Positions 980-61,867 of a DNA stretch of 64,000 nt are shown here, piece after piece (within the stretch, counting starts at the first letter, position 1; every line of letters begins with the position of its first letter). Source of the DNA: Phycisphaerae bacterium RAS1 (GTDB taxonomy: Bacteria > Planctomycetota > Phycisphaerae > UBA1845 > Fen-1342). The DNA is taken from positions 2,170,001-2,234,000 of the forward strand of contig SMLU01000001.1 of the NCBI GenBank assembly GCA_007859745.1, given 5' to 3'. Made by a program: the position numbers and the translations under genes. Below the pieces are notes generated by a model. The model was not told the DNA's origin. It did not search any database and was given only the letters and a program-made list of their open reading frames with translations.

Positions 980-1126
980 GCTCACCGCGTAGGCTGGGCT
1001 GAGTACTCGAAGCCCAGCCCGCCCAGCCGGCGTAGGGTCCGCTGTGCGGACCACGGCAGCCGGCGTAGCCGGCGTAGGGTCCGCTGTGCGGACCACGGCA
1101 GCGGTCCGCACAGCGGACCCTACCTA
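980..1126. repeat. Intergenic palindromic repeats (GTCCGCTGTGCGGAC type)
   Basis: The gap between two convergent genes consists almost wholly of repeats. A fragment of the GGCTGGGCTGAGTACTCGA repeat lies at about 990-1020. Two direct copies of a unit containing GGTCCGCTGTGCGGACC follow at about 1032 and 1075, and an inverted copy lies at 1102-1123. The same palindromic core recurs at 10896-10947. Folded, the array could act as a bidirectional terminator for the genes on either side. Confidence 0.8.
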
Positions 1127-3796: not shown

Positions 3797-4161
3797 GAGA
3801 TTCTCCTTGCGTGTGATCCTCGGAACCGGATGCGCGAGCAGAGCGGAACGCCGCGCCCCATCAGCGGGGAAGCGTTCGAGGCTCGCGTTACTCACGCGCA
3901 AGTGGAAAATTCGTCCCCACGCTGGCGGCCGGCTGCCCGCCGGGGGCGGGTGTGCGGCTGTCTGAACGATGGCGGAAAGCGAGTAGGCTGGGCGGAGCGA
4001 GTGGGCTGGGCTGAGCGAGTAGGCTGGGCTGAGTACTCGAAGCCCAGCGAGTAGGCTGGGCTGAGTACTCGAAGCCCAGCGAGTAGGCTGGGCTGAGTAC
4101 TCGAAGCCCAGCGTAAGTGCTGCTGGGCTTCGAGTACTCAGCCCAGCCTACACTACTACAC
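3797..4161. repeat. Intergenic region with a 32-bp tandem array and inverted copy
   Basis: The first 180 bases are the leader of the secreted protein and show nothing else recognisable. From about 3981 to 4112 a 32-bp unit (core GGCTGGGCTGAGTACTCGA) is repeated in tandem. Units at 4017-4048, 4049-4080 and 4081-4112 are identical, and two degenerate copies precede them. An inverted copy lies at 4122-4150. The IS at 4162-4995 interrupts further array sequence, because CTCAGCCCAGCCTAC resumes at 4996. The same unit also occurs at about 990-1020 and 57750-57830. Confidence 0.85.
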
Positions 4162-8154: not shown

Positions 8155-8510
8155 GCGTTGATCCCATCTAGCGCCCCTCGCGGCGACGTTCGCCGCGCCG
8201 CGGACGCCGGGCGATCGCCGTCGAGCTTCGACCGCTGGGGAGCGCGCGTATCCTACTCCGGCGTCGGCGCCCGGCCAATGAGCGGGAAGGGATCGAGTAT
8301 CCGGCGGTCCCACTCGGGCGCACCCCGCTTCAGGCTGCAATCCGTCCGAACCCGCCGCGCCAAGCGGCGGGGTGACTGTCCGGGCCCGTTCGCGGCGTGT
8401 CGTAGATTGACGCCGCTCACCGTGCGCACGTTACCCCGCCGCTTGGCGCGGCGGGTTCCGAAAGACGCCGCCGTTCGCAACTCGCATCGCGATGCCCCTC
8501 CCCGTTCCCG
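8155..8510. repeat. Intergenic region with paired REP-like palindromes
   Basis: This 356-bp gap between two minus-strand genes holds a pair of inverted REP-like units. One unit, 8345-8375, has the core CCGCCGCGCCAAGCGGCGG, which itself folds with a GCCAA loop and continues GGTGA. The second unit, 8431-8461, is the reverse complement with 56 bp between them. The same pair occurs at 24756-24855 and 47249-47337. Spurious frames through it read PRRLARRVRT. Upstream sequence (8155-8344) presumably carries the pnt promoter, but no clear box was seen. Confidence 0.85.
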
Positions 8511-10895: not shown

Positions 10896-10947
10896 GGTCC
10901 GCACGGCGGACCCTACGCATTCAATTGGTCCGCACAGCGGACCCTAC
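10896..10947. repeat. Two GGTCCGCAC palindromic repeats
   Basis: Two direct copies of GGTCCGCAC(A/G)GCGGACC, 10896-10916 and 10927-10947, each self-complementary and followed by CTAC, lie between convergent tdk and the PH-like gene. They belong to the family at 1032-1123. Confidence 0.8.
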
Positions 10948-24601: not shown

Positions 24602-25035
24602 TCCACTCTCCGGGCCGCCTGCGAGAGCCCGCGCCAGTCGTCAGGCGGCCGTAAGACTGGCGCTAAGCTTGCACGAAAGCGCCGCGCGCGTCAACGGGAA
24701 TGGCGTTGGGGGAATCTGTGGGTGCGCCCGTTTCTCCGGGCGGGCGGCTTTTCTATCCGAACCCGCCGCGCCAAGCGGCGGGGTGAGATGCGCACGACGC
24801 CCCGCCGCAAACGCGCCCCGGACGACGCCCCGCCGCTTGGCGCGGCGGGTTCGGACAGATGCGACGTCTTCGCGGGGATTGGAGCGGGGGCAGCCGGGCA
24901 TTTTCTGTTCAAGAAGCTCTCGTCCGCTGCCGATGAATCGATTACGTTTGACTCTGCGCTGGCGGAGCCGGCGCCTTTTTCGAGAAACGGCATGGAGTGC
25001 GTCCCGCGACGCGCTCTTTTTCACGGCGGTCACGG
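24602..25035. repeat. Divergent intergenic region with a REP-like pair
   Basis: This 434-bp region separates ino1 (minus) from murC (plus). A REP-like unit at 24756-24786 (core CCGCCGCGCCAAGCGGCGG then GGTGA) faces an inverted copy at 24826-24855. They match the pairs at 8345-8461 and 47249-47337. The remainder should contain promoters for both genes, but none is obvious. Confidence 0.85.
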
Positions 25036-27389: not shown

Positions 27390-28406
27390 ATGCACACGAC
27401 CGCCGACCGGACTGCGCGGATTTCCACGCCCGCGGATCGCAAACTGAAGATCACCGTGCTGCGCGGCGGGCCGAGCGCGGAGCGCGAGGTCAGCCTCGTT
27501 TCGGGCGCGGCGATCGCCGAGGCGCTGCGCCGCCGCGGGCATGACGTGTTCGAGTCCGACATCGGGCCGGACAACCTGGCGGCGCTGGAGCGCGCCGCGG
27601 ACGTGGTGTTTCCGGCGCTGCACGGCACGTTCGGTGAAGACGGACAGGCACAGCGGATCATGGAATCGAGGGGAATTCGCTTCGTCGGCTCCGGGGCAGC
27701 CGCGTCGGCGATGGCGATGGACAAGGTGGCGACGAAGCAGGTCGCGGTCGCGGCGGGAATCCGCACGCCGGCCTACGGCGCGGTCAATTCGGTAGCGGCC
27801 GGCCCCCGTGCCGGCCGTCGGGAGCCGGAAGCCTCCCGATCCGACCACGGCCGGCACGGGGGCCGGCCGCTACCCCATTTTGCGTCGCCGCCCGTGCCGG
27901 TCGTCGTTAAGCCGGCGGATCAGGGCAGCAGCGTCAAGACGTTCATCATTCGCGACGAGGGCGGCGTCGAGCCGGCCGTCCGCGACGTGCTATCCAGCTT
28001 CTCGCGGGCGCTGGTCGAGCAGTTTATCGAAGGCGACGAGCTGACGGTCGGCATCCTCGGCGACCAGGCTCTACCGCCGATCTGCATCCGCCCCAGGCAG
28101 GGCTTCTACGACTACGCCGCCAAATATCAGGCCGACGACACCGAATACGTCTTCGAGTCCCACCCAGCGGCGATTCTGCGCCAGGCGCAGGAGTGGAGCC
28201 TGTTGCTCCATCAGCGGCTGGGCTGCCGGCACTTGTCGCGCGTGGACTGGATCTGCGACCGCGACGGAAAGCTCTGGATGCTCGAAATCAACACGCTGCC
28301 GGGCTTCACCAGCCACTCGCTCGTCCCCAAGGCGGCGGCGCGGGTCGGCGTCGCGTTTGATGAGCTCTGCGAGCGGCTGGTGCTGATGGCCCTGGAGGGC
28401 GACTAG
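27390..28406 (+). CDS. ddl: D-alanine--D-alanine ligase, with 82-bp hairpin inserted in frame
   Basis: This 338-residue ATP-grasp enzyme makes D-Ala-D-Ala for peptidoglycan. Motifs are KITVLRGGPSAEREVSLVSG, VFPALHGTFGEDGQ, GSGAAASAMAMDK, VVVKPADQGSSV, LVEQFIEGDELTVGIL and LEINTLPGFTSHSLVPKAA. About residues 135-162, between IRTPAYGAV and PVPVVVKPADQGSS, lie some 27 residues rich in Gly, Arg and Pro. They correspond exactly to a perfect palindrome (27792-27873), where family members have only a short loop. All catalytic blocks remain in frame. ATG 27390 follows murB by 4 bp. Confidence 0.94.
   Translation: MHTTADRTARISTPADRKLKITVLRGGPSAEREVSLVSGAAIAEALRRRGHDVFESDIGPDNLAALERAADVVFPALHGTFGEDGQAQRIMESRGIRFVGSGAAASAMAMDKVATKQVAVAAGIRTPAYGAVNSVAAGPRAGRREPEASRSDHGRHGGRPLPHFASPPVPVVVKPADQGSSVKTFIIRDEGGVEPAVRDVLSSFSRALVEQFIEGDELTVGILGDQALPPICIRPRQGFYDYAAKYQADDTEYVFESHPAAILRQAQEWSLLLHQRLGCRHLSRVDWICDRDGKLWMLEINTLPGFTSHSLVPKAAARVGVAFDELCERLVLMALEGD
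27792..27873. repeat. 82-bp hairpin with perfect 27-bp arms inside ddl
   Basis: The left arm 27792-27818 (starting GTAGCGGCCGGCCCCCGTG) and the right arm 27847-27873 (ending GGGGGCCGGCCGCTAC) are exact reverse complements. A second small stem CGGGAG/CTCCCG lies between them. The arms are too perfect for ordinary coding sequence. Confidence 0.92.
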
Positions 28407-30189: not shown

Positions 30190-30253
30190 GGGTGGGACGG
30201 GCGTCTCGCCCGTCCCTGACACCGCGGGGACGGGCGGGACGCCCGTCCCACCC
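30190..30253. repeat. GGGCGTCTCGCCCG hairpin pair
   Basis: GGGTGGGACGGGCGTCTCGC... (30190-30216) and its inverse ending CGCCCGTCCCACCC (30226-30253) form a roughly 64-bp imperfect palindrome between convergent genes. It is the best-conserved copy of a family with at least six members here. Confidence 0.88.
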
Positions 30254-36290: not shown

Positions 36291-36346
36291 GGGTGGGACG
36301 GGCGTCTCGCCCGTCCCGCGCGACGGGCGAGACGCCCGTCCCACCC
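36291..36346. repeat. GGGCGTCTCGCCCG hairpin pair
   Basis: GGGTGGGACGGGCGTCTCGC... and the inverse ending GACGCCCGTCCCACCC form a 56-bp palindrome between convergent genes, nearly identical to the copies at 30190 and 57146. It could act as a terminator for both sides. Confidence 0.88.
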
Positions 36347-47135: not shown

Positions 47136-47499
47136 GTTGTGCTCTCCTTTGTCCGTGCGGCGCCAAACCGCCGGCGCCGCGGATCATGCCTGACTAATGA
47201 TCGCCGTCCGAAGCGCGGTACGCCAGCGCCGCCCGCAAGGCCGGGGACGTCACCCCGCCGCTTGGCGCGGCGGGTTCGGAAAAACGCCCGGGCCAGCGCA
47301 TCCGTCCGAACCCGCCGCGCCAAGCGGCGGGGTGACGTCTCGGGTGGGCCCATGTCGCCTGTGACACGGAGACCGAAGCCGCGCTGCAGGCGTCCGATCC
47401 TTACGCGATCCTTACGCCGACGCCGCCAATCCTGACAGCAAACTGACGCGCCGAGTATTACGCTTCGTGAGGCGGGGGGCACGCTCTGGGAGCGACACC
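47136..47499. repeat. Divergent intergenic region upstream of kdp with a REP-like pair
   Basis: This 364-bp region separates the diheme peroxidase from the kdp locus. An inverted pair of REP-like units lies at 47249-47280 (CACCCCGCCGCTTGGCGCGG...) and 47305-47337 (reverse complement). This pair is arranged in the opposite order to those at 8345 and 24756. The 160 bp after it should carry the kdp promoter; no KdpE-type site was recognised. Confidence 0.85.
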
Positions 47500-57709: not shown

Positions 57710-57899
57710 GGTGGGTTTCGCTTCGCTCAACCCACCCTACACAGGTAGAGGTAGGCTGGGCTGAGATGAGGTAGCTGAGGTAGGCTGGGCTGAGCTGAGT
57801 AGGCTGGGCTGAGTACTCGAAGCCCAGCCTATCCGATTTGATTGAGTGGGGCGGGCGTCTCGCCTGTCGCCCGGGACGGGCGAGACACCCCTCCCACCC
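57710..57899. repeat. Cluster of three repeat families
   Basis: In order these are GGTGGGTTTCGCTTCGCTCA plus ACCCACCCTAC (57710-57740), three GTAGGCTGGGCTGAG units ending in a full GAGTACTCGAAGCCCAGCC copy (about 57750-57830), and a GGGCGTCTCGCC/GGCGAGACACCCCTCCCACC palindrome (57844-57899). All lie between convergent cupin genes. Confidence 0.85.
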
Positions 57900-61803: not shown

Positions 61804-61867
61804 GGGTGGGACGGGCGTCTCGCCCGTCCCCGCGGTCTCAGGGACGGGCCAGACGCCCGTCCCACCC
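61804..61867. repeat. GGGCGTCTCGCCCG hairpin pair
   Basis: GGGTGGGACGGGCGTCTCGC... and an inverse ending GACGCCCGTCCCACCC form a 64-bp palindrome between the response regulator and the secreted-protein gene. Confidence 0.88.

Follow-up and report, generated by a model that had tools for sequence, protein, structure and literature searches.

The window analysed here, a 64,000-nucleotide stretch of the Phycisphaerae bacterium RAS1 genome (5.5 Mb in 7 contigs, 99% complete; G000 below), contains a ddl gene preceded by murC and murB as judged by the codon model and Pfam. The ddl open reading frame as listed begins at an upstream TTG; the start given in Table 1 was chosen by the codon model. The product contains both the N- and C-terminal Ddl domains (Pfam) and scored above the cut-off of the NCBIfam D-alanine--D-alanine ligase model. 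A perfect inverted repeat lies inside this gene, and the reading frame runs through it uninterrupted, as the original prediction of an in-frame hairpin in an intact ddl had stated. That prediction was also right in calling the hairpin perfect, but its 27-bp arms proved to be one pair too short: they occupy 27791-27818 and 27847-27874 and extend to 33 nt at 94% identity once mismatches are allowed. The second inner stem that it described was found in the loop as TCGGGAG/CTCCCGA. When the element was folded as single-stranded DNA, the predicted energy was -51.4 kcal/mol, compared to -27.6 (sd 2.8) for shuffled sequences, none of which was as good in 200 trials. In five first-order randomisations of the window, perfect stems closing a loop of at most 30 nt reached no more than 11-13 bp, as opposed to 28 bp in the real sequence. 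These two results rule out a chance palindrome.

Table 1. Features of the ddl locus, in window coordinates.
Feature	Position	Strand	Basis
ddl, D-alanine--D-alanine ligase, 338 aa	27390..28406	+	ORF, codon model start, Pfam, NCBIfam
Perfect inverted repeat, 28-bp arms and 28-nt loop, 84 nt = 28 codons	27791..27874		sequence reading
First REP unit: GTAG foot, stem CGGCCGGC / GCCGGCCG, loop CCCCGT	27792..27817	+	exact family consensus match
Spacer separating the two REP units, contains small inner stem	27818..27847		sequence reading, fold
Second REP unit, in inverted orientation and identical to the first	27848..27873	-	exact family consensus match
Ddl codons 135-161, element-coded (VAAGPRAGR...GGRPL)	27792..27872	+	translation, model, relatives

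The inverted repeat is a REP dimer (REPIN) extended by a single flanking G/C pair, and the 82-bp dimer runs from GTAG to CTAC. A search of G000 for this REP type allowing up to 3 mismatches recovered 97 units, 52 of them exact, and the same search with a reversed control pattern recovered none. The genome search for the arm sequence that had been proposed found units both within and between genes. The accompanying claim of an element family in this lineage held in that a palindromic family is spread over the genome; the family is not an unknown analogous one, however, but a GTAG REP dimer. The 97 units were read in 55 loci, where they form 58 clusters. Seventeen inverted pairs span no more than 100 bp, and 9 of these are exactly 82 bp long like the ddl copy. 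In 70 of 79 units, the base directly before GTAG is a G. The layout of a GTAG foot, an 8-bp stem and a 6-nt loop matches that of REPs flanking intact RAYTs of G000, e.g. at L033. Counting G000, 12 of the 27 genomes in the GTDB family contained units with up to 2 mismatches.

Genes were called with a codon model whose training set was the window itself; by these calls, 32 of the 58 clusters were intergenic, 17 took in a gene's stop codon, 8 lay within predicted coding sequences and 1 covered a predicted start. Two of the 8 intragenic placements are open to doubt, as the start at L025 is probably wrong and L087 is an open reading frame over a REP array. The remainder lie in ddl, the tails of TrmD and a ferredoxin-oxidoreductase subunit, the linker of a ribonucleotide-reductase-like protein, the N-terminus of what we take by eye, from conserved stretches, to be an Mfd-like protein, and a protein without a Pfam match. 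We also examined 78 outward-facing feet (up to 4 mismatches), 20 of which exceeded the threshold set for coding sequence that reaches the foot, with the other 58 not classed as coding. The TAG of GTAG is the in-frame stop codon at 17 of these 20 feet, and the frame continues into the REP at three (ddl, a Glu/Gln-tRNA-synthetase-type gene and an oxidoreductase), leaving the third phase empty. The Glu/Gln-tRNA-synthetase-type protein and the ferredoxin oxidoreductase subunit both end in a REP-coded tail reading VAAGPRAGR, and the TrmD tail contains an entire REP dimer (loci L010, L097 and L013).

Several other hairpin families carrying GTAG or GTGG tags occur in the window (989-1123, 4019-4151, 7015, 10916-10947, 30192-30251, 36293-36344, 45678, 57148, 57740-57799 and 61806-61865). 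Apart from one at 667, no listed pair of window hairpins other than the ddl copy sits well within a called gene. A long inverted repeat around CCCCGCCGCTTGGCGCGGCGGGTTCGGA, which has no GTAG foot, is found at 8345-8461, 24733-24878 and 47241-47344.

The closest named relatives of the Ddl protein come from Planctomycetota and Phycisphaerales MAGs. Alignment with relatives, as had been suggested, showed just a short linker at the insert site in 28 of 29 related proteins (L051-L079). The remaining protein (L054, genome G023) has a longer loop that is unrelated to the ddl insert, and its DNA contains no exact inverted repeat of at least 8 bp. Without the element, the native linker would fall at the short end of the relatives' range. 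This Ddl has 15 matches in G000; the 14 listed comprise ddl itself and 13 short matches, all at places of REP units, and none of the 14 is a second Ddl. An AlphaFold2 model built with 47 of 80 relatives had a mean pLDDT of 87.7, and residues 137-158 were below 50. This stretch sits between the strands at 129-133 and 171-175, and its predicted disorder agrees with the earlier expectation of a stretch of about 27 residues in a loop. Comparison of the model with solved Ddl structures gave target TM-scores of 0.86 (8evx) and 0.87 (2dln). The predicted fold is thus that of a normal Ddl, with the 27 encoded residues as a disordered loop, and the insert is very probably tolerated as such. The element most likely does nothing for Ddl.

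We are confident that the ddl hairpin is a REPIN, i.e. two GTAG-tagged REPs arranged head to head, most likely copied by a RAYT into the linker that joins the N-terminal to the central part of Ddl. Family membership, copy number, architecture, the open frame and the absence of the insert from nearly all related Ddl proteins examined were established, as was the predicted intact fold; from these we infer transposition by a RAYT and an insertion event in ddl. A RAYT, an HUH single-strand transposase, would have copied the REPIN into the linker. G000 is the sole member of its genus in the comparison set, and the net gain would be either 78 nt placed 3' of a pre-existing GTAG or, if the conserved flanking G on either side is counted as part of the element, 84 nt. 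Both lengths are multiples of three, so the frame would be kept in either case. The ddl copy would be tolerated because the element is free of stop codons in that frame and occupies a flexible loop.

Each of five stand-alone RAYTs in G000 has REPs of a type of its own on its flanks (L033, L035, L037, L038 and L041). A RAYT relic lies among ddl-type REPs, bordered by seven of them and, on the opposite side, by a single one; it is a relative of the L033 RAYT in which residues 52-127, including the HUH motif, are unmatched. A RAYT search of seven further genomes (G006, G007, G021, G014, G010, G002 and G011) gave 29 matches. The loci read from them, i.e. 11 checked for REPs and 14 further RAYT loci in G006, G007 and G021, showed no intact RAYT with an exact ddl-type REP flank. 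An intact RAYT of G021 (L253) is flanked by variants of the ddl-type REP with 2-3 mismatches, and a RAYT fragment in G006 adjoins a ddl-type REP at a contig end. Since 52 copies are exact, we infer that the family was mobile until recently. It may now be stranded in G000, as its RAYT remnant is without the part that carries the HUH motif. At a separate place in G000 (C1:2614693-2619377; L044-L046 and L048), three near-identical stand-alone Y1_Tnp genes follow one another with a period of 1578 bases, and a fourth lies inverted beside them.

The original prediction had compared the hairpin with Rickettsia palindromic elements. A family of that type, specialised for in-frame insertion into genes, would share with the ddl element its palindromic form, many copies, in-frame position and tolerance in a loop. 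However, the foot is GTAG, as opposed to the CGTC that Di Nocera 2013 gives for the palindromic elements of R. conorii (PMC3733652), a RAYT relic lies between units of the family, and 32 of the 58 clusters are intergenic with just 8 in predicted coding sequence, indicating that the family does not prefer coding sequence. We therefore consider such a family very improbable; the difference in the foot makes the analogy one of behaviour and not of membership, and the proposed kinship was not upheld. Still less credence can be given to the possibility that the stretch is a native, lineage-specific Ddl loop whose DNA is incidentally palindromic. Linker length does vary and L054 has its own longer loop, but the DNA at ddl belongs, without a mismatch, to a repeat family present in 58 clusters, and a native loop is contradicted by the 28 relatives that do not have the insert together with a perfect 28-bp stem where random sequence gave 11-13 bp.

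An assembly or binning artefact might be suspected from the fact that G000, in 7 contigs, looks like a MAG. It is hardly plausible, as the frame is intact on either side of the hairpin, codon usage and domains continue across it, and like insertions are present in other G000 genes. An explanation compatible with the REPIN is that the element is in use, a hairpin in the ddl mRNA slowing ribosomes or altering mRNA stability and thereby setting Ddl output. The very stable fold predicted with DNA parameters is in its favour, as is the proposal of Di Nocera 2013 that many REPs act as RNA elements (PMC3733652). On the other hand, the insertion is common to no relative examined, which gives no hint that selection has favoured it, and we regard such a function as unlikely. 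We conclude that the hairpin is a REPIN whose presence in ddl is very probably tolerated; it accounts for the unusual additional loop of this essential enzyme and offers a clear example of such tolerance.

RAYTs themselves were found inside housekeeping genes of G000. A search for the Y1_Tnp domain gave 20 matches, three of which lie in open frames of more than 1200 aa that encode IleRS (C3, L201), ValRS (C4, L199) and GcvP (C1, L200). A fourth embedded RAYT, in PurH (L231), was found by protein search. All four inserts are flanked on either side by domains of the host (Pfam), and the RAYT parts are in frame, free of stop codons and bordered by repeat-coded peptides. The NCBIfam model for REP-associated tyrosine transposase matched the inserts in IleRS (2.5e-18), PurH (2.3e-18) and ValRS (1.6e-5), all below its whole-protein cut-off. 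The repeat peptides at IleRS, GcvP and PurH overlie GTAG or GTGG hairpins, and none is listed at ValRS. The hairpin at IleRS, GTGGGACGGGCGTCTCGCCCGTC, is common in the window and was shown only at IleRS among the 20 Y1_Tnp loci (about 3 kb each). No second IleRS or ValRS was seen in G000 among the tRNA-synt_1 matches; two other tRNA-synt_1 loci scored no more than 45 bits and were assumed to be other synthetases. Further low-complexity in-frame repeats (GTGNREQGTGNREQG, RDQGIKGSRDQG and SEVRSQKSEV) occur in the IleRS, ValRS and GcvP genes and at L195.

Inteins and IStrons are mobile elements in which a mobility enzyme is housed inside conserved genes at recurring sites, and the embedded RAYTs resemble both in these respects. 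An intein was rejected for the four G000 hosts, in none of which Pfam detected a Hint domain, and an IStron or group I intron was rejected because Rfam gave no match at the gathering score in L001, L199, L200, L201 and L231. The embedded RAYTs differ from inteins and IStrons in these two features, and nothing suggests their removal.

The survey was then widened within Planctomycetota, and makes no claim that embedding is restricted to this phylum; we assigned the presumed hosts outside G000, including RarA, by eye from conserved stretches. The GTDB family yielded 17 Y1_Tnp matches in frames of at least 600 aa, distributed over 10 of 27 genomes. All but one lie in recognisable hosts, namely IleRS, ValRS, AlaRS (two in one gene), PurH and GcvP. 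Additional embedded RAYTs were found in PurH of G010, as in that of G000, and in a RarA-like ATPase of G002. A second family had 11 matches in frames of at least 600 aa (9 of 17 genomes), and 11 of the 12 loci read there, one with a frame of 540 aa, were in IleRS, AlaRS, PurH or GcvP, and the twelfth was not. In-frame RAYTs of the related genera and of the second family (L204-L216 and L275-L286) often occupy the same sites. In a sample of the phylum, the IleRS RAYT was matched at 1e-12 in 32 of 294 genomes, G000 included; nine or ten of 12 loci read looked embedded and two did not, and the hosts were AlaRS, a FabZ-like protein, and methyltransferase-like and other proteins. We dropped two long frames with Y1_Tnp for want of a recognisable host (L211 of G011, 658 aa; L284 of G055, 881 aa), two loci with Y1_Tnp in the last part of the frame (L289 and L299), and L217-L220, where frames were shorter and the host was unrecognisable.

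The sites recur: the RAYT lies before CFIKHTNACG in PurH, after FLPG in GcvP, and in IleRS either in the editing region or after the RGWFYGLL stretch. A tree combined 30 embedded domains with 9 stand-alone RAYTs from G000, leaving out the stand-alone RAYTs of other genomes (e.g. L218-L220). The embedded RAYTs clustered by host, with ValRS next to AlaRS, two separate PurH groups, IleRS, and GcvP together with RarA, and each group spanning several genes or genomes included members of both families. The PurH and IleRS forks were weakly supported, and the two IleRS sites were not separated. Given these limits and the choice of stand-alone RAYTs, related stand-alone RAYTs may have inserted independently at the host genes. 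The HUH motif is kept in 29 of the 30 embedded RAYTs (it is lost in PurH of G018), and a loose tyrosine pattern was matched in all 30. Ten pairwise comparisons at shared sites gave 59-70% amino-acid identity, with 74-84% of second and 41-51% of third codon positions the same. Conservation so much higher at the second position would be the pattern of selection on the RAYT protein. At third positions the RAYT part is mostly less alike than the host parts (47-68%), which counts against simple co-inheritance. The repeat peptides bordering the RAYTs vary among genera.

On balance, we favour the interpretation that RAYTs in Planctomycetota occur as stop-free in-frame domains of IleRS, ValRS, AlaRS, PurH and GcvP, joined by REP-coded linkers and made within an essential protein, and that they form host-tied lineages that persist across genera and families under selection acting on the RAYT sequence as the REPs turn over. 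The in-frame positions were read directly; translation and activity of these domains, and the mechanism of their retention, are putative. Within this interpretation, the IleRS RAYT is the only transposase found flanked by the common GTGGGACGGGCGTCTCGCCCGTC REP family in G000. A stop or frameshift in an embedded RAYT would kill the host, which would, if the interpretation is correct, explain how REP mobilisers last. To our knowledge, the long persistence of RAYTs is an unsolved question, and the embedded RAYTs make it testable: whether the fusion is made, whether the REPs are cut, and whether the RAYT is kept because it is inseparable from the host enzyme. The REPIN in ddl would then be a small-scale instance of this in-frame colonisation, and annotators would have to regard long linkers in such enzymes as residues of mobile elements. 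No report of embedded RAYTs was found in the open-licence literature.

The ddl element can be compared to three known systems. The repeated unit of the Pseudomonas REPINs, as reportedly described by Bertels and Rainey in 2011, is two inverted REPs with a spacer, with a RAYT in the genome. The ddl element shares the inverted REP pair with spacer as a repeat unit and a genome containing RAYTs; unlike those REPINs, the copy described here is intragenic, and its family's REPs enclose a RAYT relic. Rickettsia palindromic elements are palindromic, lie in frame within genes and are tolerated, and we know of no dedicated transposase reported for them. The ddl element is likewise palindromic, in frame within a gene and tolerated, with in-frame copies a minority of its family, which differs from the CGTC-footed Rickettsia elements in its GTAG foot and its RAYT relic.

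The closest likeness is to the GTAG REPs of Di Nocera 2013 (PMC3733652). That paper reports GTAG REPs in Planctomycetes, the use of the foot's TAG to terminate adjacent genes, REPs that lie within genes, including those of tRNA synthetases, and intragenic GTAG REP dimers coding for 20-30 residues; it also states that a recombinant E. coli RAYT cuts the GTAG motif of REPs. The ddl family agrees with these REPs in its GTAG foot, short stem-loop, dimers of opposite orientation, TAG stops, intragenic copies and occurrence in Planctomycetes. It differs from the cases given there in its host gene, ddl, and the likeness is one of layout and not of sequence comparison with the 24 families of the paper. 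The ddl element thus belongs to a published kind, the intragenic GTAG REP dimers, of which this copy is newly found.
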